Assembly (NCBI GenBank): GCA_022641835.1
Contig: CP048718.1
Coordinates: 992,001 to 1,056,000, forward strand
DNA from: Petasospora fabianii
Taxonomy: Eukaryota > Ascomycota > Saccharomycetes > Phaffomycetales > Wickerhamomycetaceae
DNA: 64,000 nt
Reading direction: 5' to 3'
Shown: positions 1,036 to 13,430 of the stretch, in pieces
Position numbering within the stretch: the first letter of the stretch is position 1
How the letters are laid out: every line of letters begins with the position of its first letter
Position numbers and translations under genes: made by a program
Notes under the pieces: model-generated
What the model was told of the DNA's origin: nothing
Database searches by the model: none
The model's input: only the letters and a program-made list of their open reading frames with translations

Positions 1036-1053
1036 ATGAAGAAGTATGTCTGA
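1036..1053 (+). promoter_or_regulatory. Five-codon uORF overlapping the GWT1 start
   Basis: ATG at 1036 opens a frame MKKYV that stops at 1051-1053. It overlaps the GWT1 start codon (1046) in another frame. If the transcript begins upstream of 1036, ribosomes using this ATG would pass the GWT1 start, lowering output. The transcription start is unknown, so the role is an inference. Confidence 0.35.
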
Positions 1054-2539
1054 TTTGAAAGAACGTAAGGAGGCGTTTGTTTCCGGGTTGACTGGAGGTT
1101 CGATCTCCGAGATTAATCAAGTCACTTCGATAGCATTGATTGGGTATTTCTCATGGTGTTTTATCAATAAGTACACTAATCTCTTCCATGGATCAAATAA
1201 ATGGTCACCATTGAGTCTTACAATTGATTTCCTTCTCAATTGGGTGGGGCTTCTACTGGCCATAACACTCTATTCATCACAACCAAGTATGCTTGCCCTT
1301 GGGATCCTCTTACCAACACTTTCATTACCATTGTTCAATAGGGCAAGATCAACGTCATCACAAAAGAAGACTAAGAAGATTAATAAAGCCGAGATCACCG
1401 ATAAGACATACTTACCAAAGAAACCATTCGTTACTGAATACAGAGGAGGTATGCTCGTTATCACCGCACTGGCTATCCTTGCTGTTGATTTCAAAATCTT
1501 CCCACGTCGTTTCGCCAAGGTTGAAACTTGGGGAACATCATTAATGGATCTTGGTGTTGGATCTTTTGTGTTTTCAATGGGTATGGTATCCACACGAAGT
1601 GTTATGCTTGATGAATTTCATCAAAGAAGAGTTAGTTATTGGTCAAAATTGTACAAGAGTCTAAGAAGTACAATGACAAGTGTTGCATTGGGGGTCTTAA
1701 GACTGGTCTTTGTTAAGAACTTGGACTATCAAGAGCATGTCACAGAATATGGTGTTCATTGGAATTTCTTCATAACACTTGTCTTGGTGGGTCCATTGAC
1801 TATCTTCATTGAACCAATCTTCAAATTCATTCCTCGTTGTCTAGTATCATTAATCATTACATTGACTTATGAATGGTTTATTGTCAAGAAAGAAGAATTC
1901 TTACCATATCTTTTACTTGCACCAAGAGTTGATTTCTTAAGTGCTAATAGAGAAGGTATCTTTTCACTTTTGGGGTATTGGGCAATCTTCCTTGCTGGTC
2001 AAACATCAGGTTTCTATGTTCTACCATCTACCGCAATAAGGAACAACTTGTACAAACCTTCATCAAAACAAGTCATTATCAATCAAGATAAGACCAAATT
2101 TAGCTTATTTGATAAACTCACTACAGTGTCTCCCCTCAGAGGTCTCATCACATGGTGTATCATTTACACATCACTTTTCTACTTTGTTAGACAAGAACAC
2201 GCTTATAACGTCTCAAGAAGACTTGCTAATCTCCCATATGTTCTATGGGTTTGTTCATACAACACTGGATTCCTAGTGTTTTACACATTGATTGATAAAC
2301 TCTTTGCTAATGACAACGAGGCATATGAAGATCGCATCTCGGTAAGTTTGGACAGTATAAACTCCAACGGTATGATCCTATTCTTACTCTCTAATGTGTC
2401 AACGGGTATAGTTAACATGACTATAAACACACTTGATGCTTCTCCTGCAAAATCTATTGTGGTACTCTTGTCATATGCTCTTTGGATCGCTTCTGTCGGT
2501 GCAGTGCTCTATTATAAGAAAATCTTCATCAAGCTTTGA
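1046..2539 (+). CDS. GWT1: GPI-anchored wall transfer protein 1, inositol acyltransferase
   Basis: 497 residues, the usual length (S. cerevisiae about 490). Gwt1 is a multi-pass ER membrane enzyme that acylates the inositol of GlcN-PI during GPI-anchor synthesis. Family blocks are easy to see: LTGGSISEINQVTS near the N terminus, FPRRFAKVETWGTSLMDLG, then VKNLDYQEHVTEYGVHWNFF in the middle, SANREGIFSLLGY and RRLANLPYVLWV towards the C terminus, ending in KKIFIKL as in S. cerevisiae. Around a dozen hydrophobic spans alternate with short loops. The ATG at 1046 starts directly on the conserved N terminus, so no intron is needed. It is the first gene of a block (with SRS2, TOK1 and BCK1) conserved with S. 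cerevisiae YJL091-YJL095. A short overlapping uORF precedes it. Confidence 0.97.
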   Translation: MSDLKERKEAFVSGLTGGSISEINQVTSIALIGYFSWCFINKYTNLFHGSNKWSPLSLTIDFLLNWVGLLLAITLYSSQPSMLALGILLPTLSLPLFNRARSTSSQKKTKKINKAEITDKTYLPKKPFVTEYRGGMLVITALAILAVDFKIFPRRFAKVETWGTSLMDLGVGSFVFSMGMVSTRSVMLDEFHQRRVSYWSKLYKSLRSTMTSVALGVLRLVFVKNLDYQEHVTEYGVHWNFFITLVLVGPLTIFIEPIFKFIPRCLVSLIITLTYEWFIVKKEEFLPYLLLAPRVDFLSANREGIFSLLGYWAIFLAGQTSGFYVLPSTAIRNNLYKPSSKQVIINQDKTKFSLFDKLTTVSPLRGLITWCIIYTSLFYFVRQEHAYNVSRRLANLPYVLWVCSYNTGFLVFYTLIDKLFANDNEAYEDRISVSLDSINSNGMILFLLSNVSTGIVNMTINTLDASPAKSIVVLLSYALWIASVGAVLYYKKIFIKL

Positions 2540-3018
2540 GTGGGTCTGCTCGGGGACCACAAATTGAATACTGAAACATTAAAAGACACAATACTGCCAC
2601 TGCATCTCTAGAATTTGTATATATCAAGAGAAAAAAAGGTGTAGCCGGTTCTCCGACCGGGGTGTTTCTCCATGTCCCAAAGCAGAAACAATAGCCTCCA
2701 ATGTAAATCTGTCCTATCTGAGGAACGAGGGTGTAGATCATGTCCGATCTCGGAGTGGACTACTCTAGAAGTACATATTATAGGGCAATAACAAAGTATA
2801 AGTCATAGTATAACAAAGAAACCAATGTTAATTAGTCGGTATCAAAAGAACACCCGCGTCCATCTGACATGAAAAAAGTCCCCGAGCAGCCATTCAACAA
2901 CTTTGTATATAAAACCTCTGACAGACTCCGACTAAGAGTAAAGTATCGTTGAAACTTTGTGAAAAAGAACACCGATAGACGTCACCGTGGAATCCCCTTT
3001 TAGTCTTGGATCCATCAC
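2540..3018. other. Spacer GWT1 to TatD-type gene
   Basis: GWT1 3' region and TatD promoter. It holds a small GC hairpin at 2645-2660 (CCGGT, six-base loop, ACCGG) and a TATATAAAA box at 2906-2914. No believable gene is present; the 70-codon minus-strand frame here lacks family resemblance. Confidence 0.5.
2906..2914 (+). promoter_or_regulatory. TATA box of the TatD-type gene
   Basis: TATATAAAA lies 236 bp before the first ATG (3142) but only about 105 bp before the tandem ACG codons at 3019-3024. That spacing would place transcription starts upstream of the in-frame, ATG-less leader, so the leader is probably transcribed. Confidence 0.55.
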
Positions 3019-3141
3019 ACGACGCCTCCCTCGATACATTCAAAGTTGAAGTTGAAGAACTTACTCCCCGCTTCTCGTCTCCTCCTCCGTACTTCGGTAG
3101 CTAAAGCCACCGTTAAAGCCATTTCGAGACCTTTATCCACT
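3019..3141 (+). other. In-frame ATG-less N-terminal extension resembling a mitochondrial presequence
   Basis: The frame of the TatD gene is open upstream to a TAG at 3001-3003 and contains no ATG before 3142. From the tandem ACG-ACG at 3019-3024 it would add 41 residues with eight Lys/Arg, no Asp/Glu, and alternating hydrophobic residues (core LPASRLLLRTSVAKATVKA, then SRPLST before the Met). TTG codons at 3046 and 3052 are other possible starts. Known precedent: S. cerevisiae ALA1 starts its mitochondrial form at two consecutive ACG codons, and GRS1 at TTG. Translation here is inferred, not shown. Confidence 0.5.
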
Positions 3142-4236
3142 ATGTCCCGTCCCAAATACTTTGATATCGGTGTCAATTTCACCGATCCGATGTTTCATGG
3201 CTCGTACCATGGCCGTCAATGTCACCCGGGTGACATTGAAGACGTTGTGCTACGTGCAAAGACGTTCCATGTTCGCAAGATGTTACTCACGGGTTCTTCA
3301 CTCTCTGAGAGTAGAGAGACATTAGTCATAGCTAGTGCTATGCCTGATTATCTCTACACTACTGTCGGTGTACACCCATGCTCTGTAAATGAGATCAATG
3401 AGGAGAATCAGGAACAGTATCTTAGGGATCTGAGGGAACTTGCCCTTTCTGGTACCAGAGCCGGTTTCGTTAAGGCATTTGGAGAGATTGGCCTCGATTA
3501 TGATAGATTACACTATACACCAGCTGATGTGCAAAAGAAATACTTCAAGTTACAATTAGATATTGCAGTTGAAGTTGGATTACCATTGTTCTTACACATG
3601 AGAGCTGCTAATGATGATTTCTGTGAAATCATCGAACCATATCTACCAAGTTTACCCAAAGGTGGTGTTGTCCATTCTTTCACTGGTACAAAGGATGAAT
3701 TGGATAAACTTTTGTCCCTAGGTTTCTACATTGGTGTCAATGGTTGCTCTTTAAAGACTGAAGAGAACTTGGAAGTCGTTAAGCATATCCCATTGGATAG
3801 ACTATTGGTGGAGACTGATGCCCCATGGTGTGAAATTAGACCAACTCACGCAGGTTACAAGTATTTGACACCATACCCTAACGAAACATACCCTTCAGTT
3901 ATCACAAAGCAGTCTTCACTAATCAAAGTGTCAGACTACCGTAATGCACTTGCCAACGTTGATAAGGGAATCAAGATGGATCCACTACTTCCATTCCCAT
4001 TGCTTAAGAAGGACCAATACTCTAAGTATGATGCCTCGACAAGAACACTCACAGGATCTCTTGCATCTCCTTTGATTAAAGGAAGAAATGAACCTGTTCA
4101 CATTGGCCAAGTTGTCGAGATCATTGCTAATGTAAGAGGCGAATCTGTACAGACGGTGATGGAGGCTGCCTACAACAACTCTTTCAAGTTGTTTGACATT
4201 GAAGAGGATGACGAGGATGAGTTCTTCCAATACTGA
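3142..4236 (+). CDS. TatD-family metal-dependent deoxyribonuclease
   Basis: 364 residues from the first in-frame ATG. It belongs to the TatD amidohydrolase-fold nucleases, which use two metal ions to remove nucleotides from DNA 3' ends; the S. cerevisiae counterpart is YBL055C, implicated in DNA degradation during cell death. Visible motifs: FDIGVNFTDPMFHG at the N terminus (eukaryotic form of the first metal site), GEIGLDYDR (Glu115), LFLHMR (His152), VVHSFTG (His178) and VETDAPWCEI (Asp226). The C terminus is acidic (EEDDEDEFFQY). A long in-frame leader without ATG lies upstream and looks like a mitochondrial presequence, so a second, organellar isoform is plausible. It sits between GWT1 and SRS2, which are adjacent in S. 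cerevisiae, so it is an insertion relative to that order. Confidence 0.93.
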   Translation: MSRPKYFDIGVNFTDPMFHGSYHGRQCHPGDIEDVVLRAKTFHVRKMLLTGSSLSESRETLVIASAMPDYLYTTVGVHPCSVNEINEENQEQYLRDLRELALSGTRAGFVKAFGEIGLDYDRLHYTPADVQKKYFKLQLDIAVEVGLPLFLHMRAANDDFCEIIEPYLPSLPKGGVVHSFTGTKDELDKLLSLGFYIGVNGCSLKTEENLEVVKHIPLDRLLVETDAPWCEIRPTHAGYKYLTPYPNETYPSVITKQSSLIKVSDYRNALANVDKGIKMDPLLPFPLLKKDQYSKYDASTRTLTGSLASPLIKGRNEPVHIGQVVEIIANVRGESVQTVMEAAYNNSFKLFDIEEDDEDEFFQY

Positions 4237-4300
4237 ATAGTTATTTAAGTAGAAACTGATAAATATAAAGAGTTCTTTAGAAGAGTATCAAATAGAAGAG

Positions 4301-4320
4301 ACGCGAAAGATGAGACGCGT
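4301..4320 (+). promoter_or_regulatory. Candidate SBF/MBF sites upstream of SRS2
   Basis: ACGCGAAA (4301-4308) resembles a Swi4/6 cell-cycle box and ACGCGT (4315-4320) is a perfect MluI cell-cycle box. They lie 87-106 bp before the SRS2 ATG. SRS2 is known to be expressed periodically around G1/S in S. cerevisiae, so these are credible sites for late-G1 control. Confidence 0.55.
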
Positions 4321-4406
4321 CAATTGAAATGTAAACAAAGGTCTTCTCTCTCTCTCTCTTAAGAGTCTTCATATAACACTACATTCTCTGTTCTTTAAAG
4401 GTCACT

Positions 4407-7034
4407 ATGGACCATGATCTCATATACAGGATCCTAGATGGTCTTAATGAGGAACAACGGGCCGCAGTGACTGCCCCAGCGCGTGGTCAGTTACAGATTG
4501 TGGCTGGTCCCGGGACGGGAAAGACTAAGGTTCTTACGTCTCGAGTGGCATATCTCCTCATCCATGAGAAAATCCAGCCGTGGCAGATGGTGGTTACCAC
4601 CTTCACTCGTAAGGCTGCCAAGGAGATGAAGGACAGACTCGCTGTGCTTCTCGAAGGGTCCCATGTGCCGTTTGATAAGCTACATATTGGTACTTTCCAT
4701 TCCATATGCATCAAAGTTCTAAGGAAGTACGGTAAAGAAGTTGGTCTCGATCAGAAATTCATTGTGGCAAGTACAAAGGACATTTCTGACATACTAGATA
4801 CGTTCTTGGATGACTCAAAGAAAGAACTTGATGCCCTAAGACTTAAAGACGAAGAAACAGGAAGGGCCAAAGATCTCAGAAGTGAAAAGGACTCGATGGT
4901 TATCAGTAAGATCAGAAAGCACATTTCACTGTTAAAATGTCGAGGAAGCTGGCCAGAGGACTATTCCAAGGAAGAGACTCACTCACAGGAACTTTTTAAG
5001 ATCTACACTGAGCTTCACTCAAGAATGTCAACGATGACAATGTTGGACTTTGATGATATCCTCATCTATACTGTTCGTCTCCTCCAACACAACACTTGCA
5101 TGTCCTCTATCAAACATGTCCTTGTCGATGAGTTCCAAGATACAAACACCGTACAGATGGATCTCGTACGTCTCTTTGCCTCCCAGAATAAGTACACGAG
5201 AGATAACATCACCGTCGTTGGTGATGTTGATCAAAGCATATATGCCTTCCGTGGTGCAAACTCTGCAAATTTTAACATCTTCCAAGGGAGATATCCTCAT
5301 TGTAAAGTTATCAAACTCAAGTATAACTATAGATCCACTCAGGATGTTCTCGATGCTAGTGAATGTTTCATGAGGGAACAAAAAGATCGACCTTCAAAAG
5401 ACCTCGTTTCCCAATATAACAAGAGTTTCCCTCTTGTGTATCGTTGTTTGAAGAGTGATTATAAAGAAGCTGAGTTCATTGCATCTGAGATCAAATTCTT
5501 GAGGTCTCTAACGGGACTGTTTAAGCCCCAGGATTTTGCAATCTTGGTGAGGGCTAACTATATGACCAGAGTCATTGAAAAAGAGTTATCGACTAAAGGT
5601 CTCCCTTACTCTGTCGTCAAAGGTAGAGCCTTTTGGGAGAGAAAGGAAGTAATGGCCATCATTGATCTCTTGAAATCAGTTGGGAGACCACAAGACCGAT
5701 GTGCTTTCATTAGATCACTATTATTTGTCGGTGAAGGTGTTGGTTCTGTTACTATGAAAAGAATCTCTGGGTACCTGGAAACTGAGACAAAGAGTGGGAT
5801 GACAACGTTGTCCGCTATCAAGATGATTATTAATGGTCAGAGAACTATCAAGGGATTAAATGCAAAGGCGAAGACAAGTTGTGCCAATTTGGTTAAGTTG
5901 ATTGAAGGTTCTATGTCGATATACTCTAGTGATCAATGTGACAAGTCTGATGTCATTGCACTCTTTGAATACTTCTACCAATCGGATGCAATTCAAAAGA
6001 TGCTTGATACAGATGATGAAAAGGTTCAGAATGTCAAGGAAATCAAGACACAACTCGAGCTATTTGTTCCTGAAGATTTGAAGATCGAGGAAGATGATAA
6101 TGACACCGTTGAGACCGACAATGAAACTCCAGAGCTGACGTTCCTCGAGTCTTTCCTCAGCTCGATTGACATATACACACCGGAGGAGGTAACTGAAGAA
6201 TCCGAGAGATCTATTGATCTTGAAAGTAAGATCTCCATCTCTACGATCCATGGGGCAAAGGGTCTTGAATGGCCCATTGTGTTTGTTGTTGGTGTCAATG
6301 AAGGACAATTCCCCAGTGGTCGTACAGACGACATCATCACTGATAGACAAGCCAGTGTCAATGAAGATCGACGTGTCTTTTATGTCTCCACTACTAGAGC
6401 TAAGCATCTTCTCTATGTGACATCAAACACTGCCACTTCGGAATTTGTGATGCCAATGAATACAGCGGGCAAGTTGGAGAAACACCAGAGAGCTTTCAAA
6501 GATCAAGAACAGATCAAAGCACTCTACAAACTCGTGGGTGCACCGGTACCTAGTGCTAAGGAACTTGAAAAGTATCATTTGCTTGCTGATTCGATCCGTC
6601 GTGAAAGAGATGAACAAGATGGTTCTGATCTACAGGGCAAGAATGAATATAGATACATGGCCAAGTCCAAGTCACCAACTGATACAGAACAGTACGATGC
6701 ACATCCAAAGACAAAAGCTCCACGGTTTGCCCCGAGTTACACTCCACAGACACGAATCACCAAGATGGAACCCAAGCCGGGACCAGTGCCTCCATTTAGA
6801 GTACCATTGTCAACGAAGAACTCTGTATCTATCCACAATCCACCATACAGACCACCTCGTATCGACAAGTTATCAATACCGGCCAAAACGGGAGATAATC
6901 CATCTCTCAAACAGGAACACGTTGTAACTGGGGATCACGTCTCTCATGCAACGTCGAGTGTAAACAACACTGCAAGCATTGACACGACACGTCCGAGAAA
7001 GAAGACGCTAGGAATGAAGAGACGTCGCTTTTGA
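4407..7034 (+). CDS. SRS2: Srs2-type UvrD-family DNA helicase/antirecombinase
   Basis: 875 residues. A superfamily 1 3'-5' helicase that strips Rad51 from single-stranded DNA and channels lesions to post-replication repair. Motifs: Walker A AGPGTGKTK (Lys39), TTFTRKAAKEM (motif Ia), IGTFHSICIKVL, LDFDDILIYTVRLL, VDEFQDTN (Walker B, Asp241-Glu242), GDVDQSIYAFRGA, NYRSTQ, STIHGAKGLEWPIVF and the motif VI region DRRVFYVSTTRAK. These fit Srs2 better than mitochondrial Hmi1. After about residue 740 the sequence becomes basic and disordered (blocks RYMAKSKS, RFAPSYTP) and ends KKTLGMKRRRF. S. cerevisiae Srs2 is about 1,174 residues with a terminal SUMO-binding motif (EIIVID) next to a PCNA contact; nothing like it is visible here. 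Two cell-cycle boxes precede the gene. Confidence 0.95.
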   Translation: MDHDLIYRILDGLNEEQRAAVTAPARGQLQIVAGPGTGKTKVLTSRVAYLLIHEKIQPWQMVVTTFTRKAAKEMKDRLAVLLEGSHVPFDKLHIGTFHSICIKVLRKYGKEVGLDQKFIVASTKDISDILDTFLDDSKKELDALRLKDEETGRAKDLRSEKDSMVISKIRKHISLLKCRGSWPEDYSKEETHSQELFKIYTELHSRMSTMTMLDFDDILIYTVRLLQHNTCMSSIKHVLVDEFQDTNTVQMDLVRLFASQNKYTRDNITVVGDVDQSIYAFRGANSANFNIFQGRYPHCKVIKLKYNYRSTQDVLDASECFMREQKDRPSKDLVSQYNKSFPLVYRCLKSDYKEAEFIASEIKFLRSLTGLFKPQDFAILVRANYMTRVIEKELSTKGLPYSVVKGRAFWERKEVMAIIDLLKSVGRPQDRCAFIRSLLFVGEGVGSVTMKRISGYLETETKSGMTTLSAIKMIINGQRTIKGLNAKAKTSCANLVKLIEGSMSIYSSDQCDKSDVIALFEYFYQSDAIQKMLDTDDEKVQNVKEIKTQLELFVPEDLKIEEDDNDTVETDNETPELTFLESFLSSIDIYTPEEVTEESERSIDLESKISISTIHGAKGLEWPIVFVVGVNEGQFPSGRTDDIITDRQASVNEDRRVFYVSTTRAKHLLYVTSNTATSEFVMPMNTAGKLEKHQRAFKDQEQIKALYKLVGAPVPSAKELEKYHLLADSIRRERDEQDGSDLQGKNEYRYMAKSKSPTDTEQYDAHPKTKAPRFAPSYTPQTRITKMEPKPGPVPPFRVPLSTKNSVSIHNPPYRPPRIDKLSIPAKTGDNPSLKQEHVVTGDHVSHATSSVNNTASIDTTRPRKKTLGMKRRRF

Positions 7035-7097
7035 AGCACATTATACATCTAAGAGATTAAAGATAATGTCCAAGTATAGCAGTGTAGTAGAGTAAGG

Positions 7098-7115
7098 GCC
7101 CGCGCGAAAGCGGGC
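7098..7115. other. GC-rich hairpin between SRS2 and TOK1
   Basis: GCCCGC and GCGGGC pair perfectly around a GCGAAA loop. It lies 64 bp after the SRS2 stop and 116 bp before TOK1. It is one of several short GC hairpins in AT-rich spacers of this window. A role in 3' end formation is possible but unproven. Confidence 0.6.
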
Positions 7116-7231
7116 ACGCACATTATGTCTCGGTTGCATATCCGAACAACAACATTTATCCATTCCTTTATTCTGTTCCTGTTTGCTTTATCCGTCTCAG
7201 GAGAGATCCAACCGATACGGCTGTAGCCCCA

Positions 7232-9124
7232 ATGGCTCGTTCACGTAGCCTCTCGTCCAAGTCCTCGAGGTCTCAATGCACACAGCTGCCATCGCCTCCG
7301 GCAGCACTGCTTCGGAGGGCACGGGCCTTGTCTCATCACAATAAGCCCAGGCCACTGGCTCATCGTCCAACAGAGATCTCCTATGTGCCACAGTTGGCCC
7401 TTCAGCTCGAGCAAACAAAGGTTAATGATATTAATGTCGAGGTAGGGTCTGTATCGTTTGCCCTTTGGTTTGTGATTTCGAGTTACTTGCCCATCTTCAC
7501 CGCTTGCGTTGCCCCACTGACAACAATGATGAGCATCGCTGCCCTCGTCACCAAATGGCGTATGGATGACACTCATCAATACGTTCACGATAGCCATAGC
7601 ATCGTGGCACTCAACTCTGTCTCGTTGGCACTTGGTGCGTTGGCAAATCTCAGTCTGATTATGAATTGGGGTAGAAGGCTTCCCTACGTTGTGTCACAGA
7701 TCATATCCATATCACTCTTCTTTGCTGCCAGTATGATCTTACTTTCAGGTATCCTCATCGCCAATCACATCTACTTCAATCAGTCAATCTCATACTCGAG
7801 AACAGAGGGGTTTTGGTTCGCTGTTCTCACTGCCATTTTACACTTCCTCTGCTCCATCACTTGTCTCATCAACTTCAGTGGGTTTCTACTTGGCAAGTAT
7901 CCACCAGACTTTAATCTAGAAAAATCTGAGCGTGGTTTGATCGCATATACGTTCCTTCTATCGATATGGTTCCTGTGGGGTGCTGGCACGTTCTCAGCTC
8001 TGATGGGTCTCTCATTTGGTGACGCAATGTACTACTGTTGTGTCTCTCTACTCACAATTGGTCTCGGTGACTTACTCCCACATACCGTTGCTTCCAAGAT
8101 CATATGCCTCGTCTTCTCTCTCACAGGGATCATCATCCTCGGTCTCATTATTGCCATGGTACGATCCATGTCCAAGTCAACCTCAACTCCCGTTCTCTTC
8201 TGGAACCAAGTTGAAAGGGCAAGGAAGAAAGTGTTTGCTAAAGTGAAGAGGGATGACATCACACTAACACCAGAGGAATCATTTGACCTTATGAGATCCA
8301 TTAGAAAAGAGTCAAAGATTCAAAGATATCGAACCAGTATCATTCTCGTCATTGCACTCTTCATTGTCTTCTGGCTCATAGGTGCACTCGTTTTCCATTT
8401 CACTGAGGATTGGGACTATTTCGATTGTGTCTATTTCTGCTTCTTGTGTTTAATCACCATCGGTTACGGTGATTTTGCACCTTCATCCGCTGCAGGTAGA
8501 CCTTTCTTCATCCTTTGGTCCCTCTCTGCTGTCCCTCTCATGACATGTTTAATCTCTTCAGCTGGTGATACCGTTTATAACCTTGCCGTTGGTGGGTTTG
8601 CTGGGAAACTTCTTGAAAAGGTCCTTCCATCTTCCTCTGGGTCCCGAGTTGACGATAAGGAAGCATCACCACAGCAAAACACATTCTTGAATACAAGGAC
8701 TTCAGAGGACTTTGATGACGACGAACAGAGATCGATCAACGAAATCTTGGACCAAGCAAAGAGAAATGATCCAAGGTCCCAGAGAATTATCAAGTCCAAA
8801 AACCTCATTAAGGACTTGAGAAAACTGATAGTTGAGGCAAAGCAACTACCAAAGAAAAGATACGCTTTTGAAGAATGGGAAACAGTGATGCAACTCTTAG
8901 AATTCGAAGGAATGGATGAAACTGACAAGTACATAACCGATCGTGGTTGGTTCTGGATAAGTGACACTTCTCCACTTAGATATCCAATCAATGAACCCGA
9001 TTATCTCTTGTACTTGCTTTTCAGCAAATTGGAACAGATGATATTGGAAAGGGCTCAGCTAATAGCTGATGAGCTCAATGAGAGTATGGGTTCTGCAGGA
9101 GCAGATAACTTCCATAAAGGGTAA
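7232..9124 (+). CDS. TOK1: Outwardly rectifying two-pore-domain potassium channel
   Basis: 630 residues (S. cerevisiae Tok1 691). A plasma-membrane K+ efflux channel of the fungal 8-TM/2-pore class. Both selectivity filters are present: TIGLGD at about residues 275-280 and TIGYGD at about 409-414. Four hydrophobic spans precede an additional TM (FLLSIWFLWGAGTFSALMG) and pore 1, then two TMs surround pore 2 (IILVIALFIVFWLIGALVF before it, FFILWSLSAVPLMTCLIS after it). The basic stretch at the N terminus and the acidic/basic C-terminal tail are cytosolic. The start at 7232 gives an Arg/Ser-rich N terminus that could be shortened. The gene follows SRS2 and faces BCK1, as in S. cerevisiae apart from the absent KHA1; only 73 bp separate its 3' end from BCK1. 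Confidence 0.95.
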   Translation: MARSRSLSSKSSRSQCTQLPSPPAALLRRARALSHHNKPRPLAHRPTEISYVPQLALQLEQTKVNDINVEVGSVSFALWFVISSYLPIFTACVAPLTTMMSIAALVTKWRMDDTHQYVHDSHSIVALNSVSLALGALANLSLIMNWGRRLPYVVSQIISISLFFAASMILLSGILIANHIYFNQSISYSRTEGFWFAVLTAILHFLCSITCLINFSGFLLGKYPPDFNLEKSERGLIAYTFLLSIWFLWGAGTFSALMGLSFGDAMYYCCVSLLTIGLGDLLPHTVASKIICLVFSLTGIIILGLIIAMVRSMSKSTSTPVLFWNQVERARKKVFAKVKRDDITLTPEESFDLMRSIRKESKIQRYRTSIILVIALFIVFWLIGALVFHFTEDWDYFDCVYFCFLCLITIGYGDFAPSSAAGRPFFILWSLSAVPLMTCLISSAGDTVYNLAVGGFAGKLLEKVLPSSSGSRVDDKEASPQQNTFLNTRTSEDFDDDEQRSINEILDQAKRNDPRSQRIIKSKNLIKDLRKLIVEAKQLPKKRYAFEEWETVMQLLEFEGMDETDKYITDRGWFWISDTSPLRYPINEPDYLLYLLFSKLEQMILERAQLIADELNESMGSAGADNFHKG

Positions 9125-9197: not shown

Positions 9198-12100
9198 TCA
9201 AGAGGCAACTGTGAACCTCTTCTCGTTGGACTTAATCATCTGGGCAAGCTTCGTATTAGCGAAGCGGAAGCTCGTGTCAACTTTGCAGAACTCATCAAGA
9301 CAGAGCTGTTGAGCTGTTGGTCTCTTGGTAGCATCTGTGACAAAGCATGAATCCAAGAATTGTCTCCCTACTGTGGAAACCAACGGCAGTGTGTCCTCCG
9401 GAATTGGTGGGGCAGCCTTAGCTTTACCAATCTTCAACATAGCTGGGATAGCTTCCAGATTTGACCATGGACGACGACCAGCAAACATCTCTAGAACAAC
9501 ACATCCCAAAGACCAAATATCAACCTTGGCACTGTATCCTGCTCCATCACTATTCACAACTTCAGGAGCCATCCAGAAAATGGTTCCCTGCATCGACATA
9601 CCTCTATCATTAGCATAAATGTCATTTGACTTCTTCGAAATACCAAAGTCCGAGATCTTACAAACACCATCGAGATCCAACAACAAGTTATCAGCTTTCA
9701 AGTCACGATGCAAGATTCCTCTAGAATGGAGATATGCCAAACCTGAGATGATCTGAGTGGTCAAGAATCTAATCAATGGTTCTCCAAACTTACCATGTAG
9801 TCTCAGACAGGACGCAACAGACCCTCCGGCAACGTAATCGAGGAACAAGTTATACTCTTTCTCTGTTTTCTCAAACCCAAGATACTGAACAATATTCAAA
9901 TGATCAAGGTCCTTCAGAGTGTCAACCTCTGATTGTAATGCATCAATCACATCTCTAATTCTCGGAGACATCTCAGCGTTAGCAGGAACACGAACCTGTT
10001 TCACTGCAATCATTTCACCAGTTGTCACATTCAACGCCAAGTAGACATTTCCAAACGTACCCTTACCAATCAGTTCACCTTTGATCCAGGAGAATTCCTT
10101 GATATCGCCATTCTTGTCCTCTCTCAACTTACTGATCGACTGTTTCTGGTTGGGCTTCACCTCGACAACCTTACGACCCCACATCTTTGTACTCTGTCTT
10201 CTAAGCAAACCATTTGACACTTTATCTGTTGTAGAAGCTGCTCTTTTTCTTGCCTCACCTGCCTCTCTGGCAACAGCACGGATTGTCTTCATTCTTTGAG
10301 GTCTGTTCAACTTCTCCATCTTCTCATCCGTAGTTGAACTACTCACGACTCTCTTCATTTGAGTCTTCTTAGGCTGTTGTGGTTGTACCTGTTGAGCTTG
10401 TTGGATCTGTTGAGCTTGCTTGTCATTAAGGGGTGAAGCTGGAGGCGAACTGACATCAATAACCGGTTGATCCAAATCAGCATTCGGGAAGAACTTCTCC
10501 AAGTTATCATAAAGTACCTCTGGAGCAGGTCTGACAATCATCTCACTGATGGATACATCACTTGCACTCTTGACATCAGGGGCCTTTGCCCAGAACCCAT
10601 CATCAGAGTCATCACTCTCCTCTTCAAGTCCTGGGGCATCATCAAACGAGATGACATTCTCCTTAAACTTGTCGATGGTACGTGCCGAGTACGAGCGAGA
10701 AACAGCTCCAGAGAAGGATCTCTGAATGGCCATGTTGCGACTCTCCTGGATAGTTGAAGCCTGTGATGCTGCCATTGGGTCGTTCTCAAATGCCTTACGT
10801 GATCCTGGAGAGACAGAACCACTTCCCTTGTATGGCTCCGGGACCAATGTGTTGCTCGATCCTGGTGTGTATGAATTGATAAAGGTTCCTTCATTACTGA
10901 TCGACTCTTGCAAGGTCTCTAGTGTCGGCATCATAGATGTTCTCGAGTCGGCACTGCGGTTGAGTGATGGACGTGTCATGTTATGGTCTGCCTTGTTCTT
11001 TGGAGGTGGTGGTGCAGTACGTCTGGCAATAAGACTTGGTTTATTGACAAAGGGTGATTCTCTTCTCTTATCGAAGTTGATCTCACCCTTTTCAGTTGGT
11101 CTGACTATCCTGAATGTGTTTGGCACTGCTGGTCTGCTTATCTGTTTTGGTGGTGCACGTTGAGGTTTGGCACCACCTCCACCTCCAGATGAGAGTGTAG
11201 AGGTTGTATGAAGATCTGGAGTGCTTTTGGATACGAATTTGGCAGTCTCCGATGCAGTTTCCTCAACAATCTCTTGTGGTTGATGATCCTTAAAGTTAAG
11301 ATAGTCAATACCAGGCGATCTTGTGATGGTACTTTCATAGAACTGCTTTGGAGTATTTGGATAAGCCCTATCATCTCTGCTCTCAAAGGAATGGAGGTCT
11401 GAAGTGCTTGTCATCGATGAGCTCGTGACAGTGGACAAAGTATCATTGGAAGTAATCAAGAACTTACCACTGCAATGATTAAATCCATGCTTGACAATTT
11501 TATCAAGGATCTCTTCATCAAGTGCCTCACCAATGGAACATCCAAACTCTGTCAAATGGATTGTAATTTCACTTGATTTCGGGTTAAGCTCATCCACAAT
11601 CAGTTTCCTCAGCTCTTCTTTATCTTTACACTGACCAATGTTAATAGGTGTAAAGTTCTTGTTGTCCATCGTCACCAAGATATATTTATCAGAGTTGTTG
11701 TTCTCCGGTACTGGTTGAAATTTGCGATCAATGATAAAAGGTGGTATAACTTCTTCGAATCTGGATCCACTTGAACCCTTAGTGGCCTCTGTACGTCTCT
11801 TGAGATCGAAACTCTTTCGACTATCAAAGCTGGACCTGCTATCCATACTGCGAGAGCTTTCAGTCTGACGACCAGAGCTTGATGGGATTGGACTGATGGG
11901 GGATTCTCCAAGACTGGACTCTCTAGTCCTACAACGGTTGTTGCGAAGACCAAACTTACTAAGTAAGCCACCTTTGTGTTCGTGTTGATCCCTGTTACTA
12001 CTATTGCTGCTGCTCTGTCTCTTCTCCTCTTGTGATTGTGGGAGATGGGAGGAACTTGATGTGAAGAGTGAGGTGAAGAGTGATGAGTCGGATGAGTTGG

Positions 12101-13430
12101 ACTTGTTGTGTCTTCTAAAGAAACTTTGTTGAGTTGCTGGTGAGTTCGGTGAGCTTGGCCAGGCATTTTCAGAGGTTTCAACACTGGACATTGGTCTCTT
12201 TGTCACATTTGATCTTCTAAATGCTGGTGGATTTGCGGTTGATGGTCGGTTCAAGTCCACTGGAGAATGGTCAAAATTTGGTGCAGATAATGTAGGCATA
12301 AGTCTCTCTGCCGTAGCTGGACCCGTCTCTGATGTTGACCTTCCATGAAACTTGATGTTTTCTGAAGAAGGACTCGACTCAACGCTATCTACACTGGATA
12401 TGCTTGCGGTATCCGGTGGAGATGTGACCGTTGCCGTTGTCGTTGTAGAAGAAGGTCTGTCAAGGGTCTTTCGCAGCAGATGGATAAATCTCGACTGTGT
12501 CGAGTCATTCTGAGTCTCAAGCTCGTTCTTATATGTCTTTAAGTTCTGGTAACTTGTTAAAGCCAGGAATCTTCTCCCAGTTAGATTGTGTCTCTTGATG
12601 CATGCCGACCACGACTCGTTAAATTGGTTAAGCTCGAGCCAATACAACACTCTTTCCAGCGTCCATTCTTCCGGTACCTGAACATCCCATGAGATTGATG
12701 ACTGTCTGCTGTGCTGTACTATGTGATTATTTGGTGTGGACTTGCCTATAATTGATGAGTTCAAGGGACTCTCGGGCCCATGTAGAGCACTAGTGTTGTT
12801 GAAGAAACTGAACTCTCTAGAGTTATCACTGTAGCTTACATTTGCCGACTTGGAAGGAGTAGATGTCTTGATTCCAGGCTCTGGAGTCATTACATCAGTC
12901 TCAATCTTAAGTGGGATCCTTGGTGACTTCTTAATGGTTGGGGTAGCCATCCCTGTTGGAGTCATGTCGGAGATGAGGCTCGAGTTGAAGCTGCTGTTCC
13001 CTGAACGAGCAGTGTGGAACGAAACGTTATTGCTACCTGAAGTGGTATCTGCAGCGGAGCTTCTATCTGGATGTGTCTCTAATGATGGTCTTTGATGTGG
13101 TCTTTCAGGTAGAGCTGGTGGCACACCTTGTGGCCGTGCTGGACTGTTTAATGCTGTGAGTGGCTCGAAGGAGAACTTTGAAGCATCACCTTCGCTAACT
13201 GTTGAACGATCAGCATGGCCAGGTGGGGAATGAACGGGCTCTTCAGACTTGATGCTTGAGTTAGAGAACTTTCGAATCTTGTCTGCTGGGAGATAAGGGT
13301 TGATTGGGTCCATACTGATCTTCTTCATGCTCTGCATGTTATGATCGATGTAGGGCACCGAATCGATCAGAAAGTCTGGGATATTATCACTGCCCCGCTT
13401 AGTAGCATCGGCATACTTCTTAGACGACAT
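9198..13430 (-). CDS. BCK1: MAPKKK of the cell-wall integrity pathway
   Basis: 1,410 residues (S. cerevisiae 1,478). Bck1 is activated by Pkc1 and phosphorylates Mkk1/2 upstream of Slt2. A Ser/Pro-rich N terminus leads to a SAM-like fold at about 256-321 (WTLERVLYWLELNQF), a long Ser-rich linker, a ubiquitin/RA-like region near 577-650 (KYILVTMDNKNFTP), a second disordered linker with Gln-Pro repeats, and a C-terminal kinase domain from about 1113. The kinase shows GELIGKGTFGNVY, the VAIK-type lysine in MIAVKQVRV, LHRDLKADNLLLD, KISDFGISKKS, GTIFWMAPEVV and VDIWSLGCVVLEMF, as in S. cerevisiae Bck1. The gene is convergent with TOK1 and divergent from RMT2 with a 250 bp shared promoter. Confidence 0.97.
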   Translation of the reverse strand: MSSKKYADATKRGSDNIPDFLIDSVPYIDHNMQSMKKISMDPINPYLPADKIRKFSNSSIKSEEPVHSPPGHADRSTVSEGDASKFSFEPLTALNSPARPQGVPPALPERPHQRPSLETHPDRSSAADTTSGSNNVSFHTARSGNSSFNSSLISDMTPTGMATPTIKKSPRIPLKIETDVMTPEPGIKTSTPSKSANVSYSDNSREFSFFNNTSALHGPESPLNSSIIGKSTPNNHIVQHSRQSSISWDVQVPEEWTLERVLYWLELNQFNESWSACIKRHNLTGRRFLALTSYQNLKTYKNELETQNDSTQSRFIHLLRKTLDRPSSTTTTATVTSPPDTASISSVDSVESSPSSENIKFHGRSTSETGPATAERLMPTLSAPNFDHSPVDLNRPSTANPPAFRRSNVTKRPMSSVETSENAWPSSPNSPATQQSFFRRHNKSNSSDSSLFTSLFTSSSSHLPQSQEEKRQSSSNSSNRDQHEHKGGLLSKFGLRNNRCRTRESSLGESPISPIPSSSGRQTESSRSMDSRSSFDSRKSFDLKRRTEATKGSSGSRFEEVIPPFIIDRKFQPVPENNNSDKYILVTMDNKNFTPINIGQCKDKEELRKLIVDELNPKSSEITIHLTEFGCSIGEALDEEILDKIVKHGFNHCSGKFLITSNDTLSTVTSSSMTSTSDLHSFESRDDRAYPNTPKQFYESTITRSPGIDYLNFKDHQPQEIVEETASETAKFVSKSTPDLHTTSTLSSGGGGGAKPQRAPPKQISRPAVPNTFRIVRPTEKGEINFDKRRESPFVNKPSLIARRTAPPPPKNKADHNMTRPSLNRSADSRTSMMPTLETLQESISNEGTFINSYTPGSSNTLVPEPYKGSGSVSPGSRKAFENDPMAASQASTIQESRNMAIQRSFSGAVSRSYSARTIDKFKENVISFDDAPGLEEESDDSDDGFWAKAPDVKSASDVSISEMIVRPAPEVLYDNLEKFFPNADLDQPVIDVSSPPASPLNDKQAQQIQQAQQVQPQQPKKTQMKRVVSSSTTDEKMEKLNRPQRMKTIRAVAREAGEARKRAASTTDKVSNGLLRRQSTKMWGRKVVEVKPNQKQSISKLREDKNGDIKEFSWIKGELIGKGTFGNVYLALNVTTGEMIAVKQVRVPANAEMSPRIRDVIDALQSEVDTLKDLDHLNIVQYLGFEKTEKEYNLFLDYVAGGSVASCLRLHGKFGEPLIRFLTTQIISGLAYLHSRGILHRDLKADNLLLDLDGVCKISDFGISKKSNDIYANDRGMSMQGTIFWMAPEVVNSDGAGYSAKVDIWSLGCVVLEMFAGRRPWSNLEAIPAMLKIGKAKAAPPIPEDTLPLVSTVGRQFLDSCFVTDATKRPTAQQLCLDEFCKVDTSFRFANTKLAQMIKSNEKRFTVAS

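Follow-up and report, generated by a model that had tools for sequence, protein, structure and literature searches.

Does one TatD nuclease gene of the yeast Petasospora fabianii supply both the cytosol and the mitochondria, the mitochondrial form starting at a codon other than ATG? The question is raised by a stretch of 64,000 nucleotides (the window; contig CP048718.1, positions 992,001 to 1,056,000), in which the original prediction described a 46-codon frame, open between a TAG at 3001–3003 and the first ATG at 3142 and in frame with a TatD nuclease. The frame is there as described. It lacks ATG, has eight Lys or Arg residues and no acidic ones, ends in RPLST, and contains both the tandem ACG (3019–3024) and the TTG codons (3046 and 3052) to which attention had been drawn. 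The further claim, that one gene makes a cytosolic and a mitochondrial TatD by means of a non-ATG start, has the best support among the readings, helped by the leaders of homologous proteins and by an ATG-less extension upstream of GRS1 in the same genome.

The frame from ATG 3142 to the stop at 4236 encodes a full-length TatD nuclease of the TATDN1 type (364 aa). The protein scores 183.3 bits against PF01026 (TatD_DNase; Pfam cut-off 27) and matches human TATDN1 chains and 3e2v, and residues E161, H198, H224 and D272 (numbering of the 410-aa frame), which we take to be the metal ligands, are invariant across 18 aligned sequences. No second gene that could supply a mitochondrial TatD turned up in the P. 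fabianii genome (12.3 Mb, 16 contigs), where there is one full-length TatD match and the sole other match has 38% identity, over residues 176–273 of 410 only. The gene lies in a row (window 1046–9124 and 9198–13430) made up of GWT1, TatD, a UvrD-type helicase, an ion-channel gene and a protein kinase; by our reading, the helicase is Srs2-like, the channel TOK1-like and the kinase BCK1-like. In S. cerevisiae, we believe, GWT1, SRS2, TOK1 and BCK1 are near neighbours and the TatD gene is located elsewhere, so that the position of TatD beside these genes may interest those working on synteny.

The ATG-less frame and its rarity

The extension (3004–3141) translates as SWIHHTTPPSIHSKLKLKNLLPASRLLLRTSVAKATVKAISRPLST and runs directly into the ATG of TatD, while the other two frames of the same segment contain three and two stops. 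Between 2907, at the TATA box, and 3141, no frame contains an ATG. As a putative matrix targeting signal, the extension fits in its charge and acid-free composition; its hydrophobic moment is moderate (0.31–0.38), a weak discriminator by which it is not distinguishable from other upstream frames. The RPLST end, noticed post hoc, has the R-x-L then S-T arrangement that we take to be a presequence cleavage motif. A database search with residues 1–52 returned 13 candidates, none with E ≤ 1, and thus no relative of the extension.

How often would such an extension arise by chance? The 138 nt were put through 100,000 dinucleotide shuffles; the frame was open in 16,245, of which 13,608 also lacked ATG, and 189 of these were in addition acid-free with at least eight Lys/Arg, or about 1.4% of the open, ATG-free shuffles (189/13,608); all features together, including the post hoc R-x-L-S-T end, appeared in 8 of the 100,000. 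The comparison with real genes drew on 125 ORFs, none overlapping another and each 150 aa or longer, from 256 kb of the same chromosome (C4:800001-1056000). In 14 of these 125 the frame stays open upstream for 46 codons or more, and among those extensions TatD's is the sole acid-free one; acid-free extensions that reach 25 codons number six. An acid-free extension of any length with at least eight Lys/Arg is found at one ORF only, that of TatD. When genes are ranked by the net charge of 40 residues, read from a near-cognate codon 15 or more codons upstream, TatD ties with one other of the 46 scored genes.

At this rate of about 1 in 125, several thousand genes (our estimate for the genome) would yield tens of such extensions by chance. 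The extension's own sequence is suggestive, not conclusive, so that independent evidence has to carry the case; it is raised by the basic leaders of homologues, the AAR-TTG contexts and the ATG-less extension of the glycyl-tRNA synthetase gene, all described below. The codon usage of the extension is not coding-like. Its score lies within the upstream background, being equalled or exceeded by 43 of 125 upstream stretches and by 75 of 250 off-frame ones. Among real N-termini it ranks low, as 14 of 125 first-46-codon stretches are as low or lower; the TatD frame of the extension (-0.173) scores below its own third frame (-0.129), and that in turn below one reverse frame (-0.001).

Other genes have upstream frames of a related kind. 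One other acid-free, ATG-less upstream frame, of 25 codons (L023:9672-9746), has six Lys/Arg, RLQQHNGLKTGGAYRTKPLAKRPWQ; it belongs to an ORF of 299 codons situated immediately ahead of the window. An arginase-family gene (L020:1156-2439; PF00491) is preceded by a 64-codon ATG-less frame (L020:964-1155) with nine Lys/Arg and two acids, a possible non-ATG start and a weaker candidate than TatD.

Candidate start codons and the leader RNA

The near-cognate codons in frame in the extension are ATC 3010, ACG 3019, ACG 3022, ATA 3034, TTG 3046, TTG 3052 and ATT 3121 (Table 1 gives the features of the locus). The best context reported for non-AUG starts in yeast is AAR-UUG (PMC2909995). Both TTG codons follow AAG and so have A at -3, as does the second ACG; the tandem ACG is nonetheless the weaker candidate, since position -3 of its first ACG is C. 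On context, we favour UUG 3046 and 3052 as the probable initiation sites, and that they serve as the main start is about an even bet. An in-frame, open AAR-TTG within 138 nt occurs at only two of the 125 genes, and at TatD it occurs twice. Near-cognate codons preceded by AAR and opening an extension of at least 15 codons are found at 11 of the 125; three of these extensions are acid-free, and of those only TatD's has any Lys or Arg. Translation from TTG 3046 would yield MKLKNLLPASRLLLRTSVAKATVKAISRPLST and then the cytosolic Met, a compact presequence-like leader.

Table 1. Features at the TatD locus (positions in the window)
Feature	Position	Strand	Remarks
Putative TATA box, TATATAAA	2906..2913	+	140 nt before TTG 3046; 236 nt before ATG 3142
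In-frame TAG, 5' boundary of the extension	3001..3003	+	Sequence
ATG-less in-frame extension, 46 codons, 8 K/R, no D/E, presequence-like	3004..3141	+	Translation, composition
Tandem ACG-ACG, codons -41 and -40, weaker start candidates	3019..3024	+	-3 is C (first), A (second)
TTG, codon -32, preceded by AAG, favoured start of the mitochondrial form	3046..3048	+	AAR-UUG context
TTG, codon -30, preceded by AAG, second favoured start	3052..3054	+	AAR-UUG context
RPLST, possible cleavage motif of the putative presequence (R-x-L, S-T), adjoining the cytosolic Met	3127..3141	+	Sequence; post hoc
TatD (TATDN1-type) nuclease, presumed cytosolic form	3142..4236	+	PF01026; human TATDN1 chains and 3e2v

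Would these codons be transcribed? A TATA box had been proposed at 2906, and the sequence there is the only exact TATAWAWR match on the + strand between 2560 and 3142. In S. cerevisiae, transcription starts 40–120 nt after the TATA box. The ACG pair is 113 nt from the box and, if the same rule holds here, may sit at or before some of the mRNA 5' ends. The leader RNA has a folding energy like that of its shuffles (z -0.17), with no unusual structure, and an RNA structure that aids initiation was rejected on this ground; Rfam has no match in 2400–4400.

Leaders of homologues and of other genes in the genome

The homologues were gathered from two protein searches (the best 120 matches out of 5405 in one and out of 3445 in the other), giving 216 distinct proteins, fungal wherever the organism is named. 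A core start was recognised in 212 (P0014, P0125, P0187 and P0198 were dropped), and discarding sequences with 80% or more identity in the core left 132. Among these listed, non-redundant matches, 92 carry another Met ahead of the core, and in 60 the stretch before that inner Met is 8 aa or longer. The leaders of those 60 contain 224 Lys/Arg and 38 Asp/Glu in 1229 residues (18.2% and 3.1%), as against 10.4% and 14.4% in the core of the listed homologues; acids are absent from 39 of the 60 leaders, 35 of which have at least two Lys/Arg. An ATG-encoded basic leader followed by an inner Met is thus a common plan among the listed TatD gene models, whose starts are predicted and which are related to one another. 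The S. cerevisiae protein (P0121, YBL055C) follows it, with the ATG-encoded basic leader MWGILLKSSNKSCSRLWKPILTQYYS and an inner Met that opens MTST, and so does a closer relative, P0013, with MKNTLIKLTRQFK followed by MSELK; longer ATG-encoded basic leaders occur in P0006 and P0011. The spread of basic, acid-poor leaders over the listed models (P0001–P0216), from S. cerevisiae to Penicillium, suggests that dual targeting of TatD is widespread.

The nearest named matches listed belong to Wickerhamomyces-like yeasts (W. ciferrii 70%, W. pijperi 67%, W. mucosus 63%). A record with 99% identity, P0001, begins at Met 3142, and in P0002, P0004 and P0008, the most identical after it among the matches listed, the predicted start is likewise the core Met, with no extension. 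Over P0002–P0014, the 13 next-closest matches listed, three have a leader, nine have none and P0014 is incomplete. A core-Met start in the nearest gene models fits either the lack of a mitochondrial form or a non-ATG start missed by gene callers. On the conservation of the extension, which had been put forward as a check, the outcome is divided: listed homologues do have ATG-encoded basic leaders, but the extension itself has no match, and the models of P0002, P0004 and P0008 lack a leader.

Is non-ATG initiation used elsewhere in this genome? The clearest candidate is the glycyl-tRNA synthetase gene, GRS1, the only GlyRS gene above the family cut-off (L025, ATG at 1477; G000 C1, about 2984883). 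Mitochondrial translation requires GlyRS. Upstream of the ATG lies an ATG-less, presequence-like extension of 52 codons, IHGISPVKTAIVLFKTSLRSFLANKQANILRARFFSTCKAPQDRRKQPKRPK, with a codon-usage score of -0.113 and an ACG after AAA at codon -37; an out-of-frame ATG is found 170 nt upstream. Judged from this arrangement, non-ATG initiation is probably used in P. fabianii for at least one mitochondrial protein, and GRS1 makes a second candidate for a non-ATG mitochondrial start, stronger than TatD. In all the yeasts studied in PMC3306390, GRS1 is reported to be dual-functional, its upstream start candidates being AUG or non-AUG, the latter with A at -3.

The ALA1 gene of P. fabianii (L003:1233-1503) differs in this respect. 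Its presequence-like leader, MLLAPLRRLLLSNASVKNYST, opens with an ATG that has T at -3 and is followed by the cytosolic ATG, and the gene reads as intron-containing (GTACGT...TACTAAC...CAG, following codon 12 as counted from the cytosolic ATG). The type of start codon in dual-targeted genes hence differs between yeasts, since ALA1 has tandem ACG in S. cerevisiae and ATG here, and ALA1, as it reads in this genome, is not the right analogue for TatD. The putative presequence ends of TatD (RPLST), GRS1 (RFFST), two citrate synthases (RRFST and RFYSS) and ALA1 (KNYST) are alike and fit the cleavage motif, though they are few and compared post hoc. The comparison also took in one of the two SODs, whose leader has no evident S-T end; ATP1, ATP2 and the other SOD, from which no usable presequence was obtained, were left out. 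The pattern R-x-[FYLWI]-[SA]-[TSA] occurs in the first 50 aa of five of the 125 ORFs and in 21 of 977 later windows, numbers too few to rely on.

Two proposed products, the alternatives and known systems

How would one gene make two forms of TatD? We propose, with a probability of roughly 0.6, that leaky scanning past near-cognate starts gives two products, a (presumably minor) mitochondrial nuclease and a cytosolic one. On a single mRNA, some ribosomes would initiate at UUG 3046 and/or 3052, in their AAG context, and the tandem ACG may contribute. The product would carry a presequence of about 32 residues, which would direct import into the mitochondria and be cut near RPL/ST. Because this site lies directly before the cytosolic Met, the mature mitochondrial protein would be almost identical to the cytosolic form. 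The remaining ribosomes, with no AUG in the leader back to the TATA box, would scan to AUG 3142 and make the cytosolic form. The imported nuclease might have a part in mitochondrial DNA turnover. More tentatively, fungal TatD may have been dual-targeted from ancient times, its mitochondrial start switching between AUG and near-cognate codons by lineage, with the UUG pair, in the best context, having replaced AUG in the branch to which P. fabianii belongs and so setting a low mitochondrial dose of the nuclease; this history is a possibility to which we would not commit ourselves.

On the other hand, the extension may be an ordinary 5' leader that is open, basic and acid-free by chance, the gene making only the cytosolic enzyme. 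Such a leader would agree with the number of extensions expected genome-wide at the shuffle frequency, with codon usage that is not coding-like, with the predicted proteins of the nearest relatives and with the failure of the extension search to find a homologue. It leaves as coincidence the ATG-encoded basic leaders that commonly precede an inner Met in the listed homologues, two AAR-TTG codons in the correct frame and the R-x-L-S-T end, post hoc as that is, and we consider it unlikely, if still to be taken seriously. A different view of the start codon itself underlay the emphasis of the original prediction, which took its lead from the tandem ACG of S. cerevisiae ALA1. On this rival reading the mitochondrial form would start mainly at ACG 3019–3024, with the TTG codons remedial, as in that gene. 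The tandem ACG is real, and the S. cerevisiae gene has the same layout of ACG and then UUG nine codons on (PMC2909995). However, the C at -3 of the first ACG, the better context of the TTG codons, the distance of the pair from the TATA box, which may leave it at or before the mRNA 5' end, and the ATG start of the P. fabianii ALA1 gene make ACG improbable as the main start.

The mitochondrial form might also begin at an upstream ATG that is spliced onto the extension through a 5' intron with its acceptor at TTTTAG (2998–3003), for example ATG 2869 with the donor GTATAT at 2905. Introns do occur in P. fabianii, as in ALA1, ATG 2869 and the TatD frame share a phase, and the extension follows a pyrimidine-rich TAG. 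But in 2560–3142 no site that keeps the branch A comes within one mismatch of TACTAAC, four sites (2569, 2786, 2930 and 3058) having two mismatches each, and there is no perfect GTATGT, GTAAGT or GTACGT donor; the GTATAT donor shares positions with the TATA box, which itself lies downstream of ATG 2869. A spliced leader was accordingly rejected as the main reading and survives as a minor and very improbable rival.

If the TatD gene does make two products by leaky scanning, a mitochondrial nuclease is missing from the gene catalogues of P. fabianii and perhaps of related yeasts, and the set of dual-targeted proteins with non-AUG starts, of which the best-studied yeast cases are aminoacyl-tRNA synthetases, gains a nuclease. 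A targeting signal that is AUG-started in some yeasts and near-cognate in another would, moreover, make the evolution of start-codon strength testable.

The mechanism itself would not be new, since non-AUG starts of this kind are already known in yeasts. Mitochondrial isoforms made from near-cognate codons upstream of the annotated ATG, with an N-terminal targeting signal, are described in PMC11653698 and PMC12707816, and the non-AUG 'cryptic pool' (Monteuuis et al. 2019, as cited there) resembles the proposed TatD isoform in both respects; in Cryptococcus, mitochondrial LeuRS and ArgRS are made from ACG and AUU (PMC7049704). The papers listed for YBL055C and for TatD with mitochondria or non-AUG starts, mostly outside subscription papers, yielded neither a non-AUG TatD isoform nor a role for a mitochondrial TatD. 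Against a mitochondrial form, a YBL055C-GFP fusion is reported to be cytoplasmic in S. cerevisiae (PMC12505432), but GFP microscopy is poor at revealing the small mitochondrial pool of a dual-localised protein (PMC7358010).

The S. cerevisiae ALA1 gene, whose tandem-ACG start the original prediction invoked, has redundant functional ACGs, with ACG at -25, and a cryptic UUG at -16 whose context is good (PMC2909995). TatD shares with it the tandem ACG and the UUG/TTG in good context nine codons downstream (in TatD, from -41 to -32), but its first ACG has C at -3, and the ALA1 leader of P. fabianii is itself ATG-encoded. YBL055C and the other listed homologues are homologous nucleases with a basic leader directly before a core-starting Met, as here; their leaders start with ATG, whereas here ATG is absent. 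With GRS1, in its UUG form in S. cerevisiae and in the homologue in this genome, TatD shares one gene with a downstream cytosolic ATG, an upstream ATG-less stretch as the putative presequence and a near-cognate start candidate with A at -3. The enzyme is a different one, and the GRS1 of P. fabianii has ACG after AAA where TatD has UUG after AAG.
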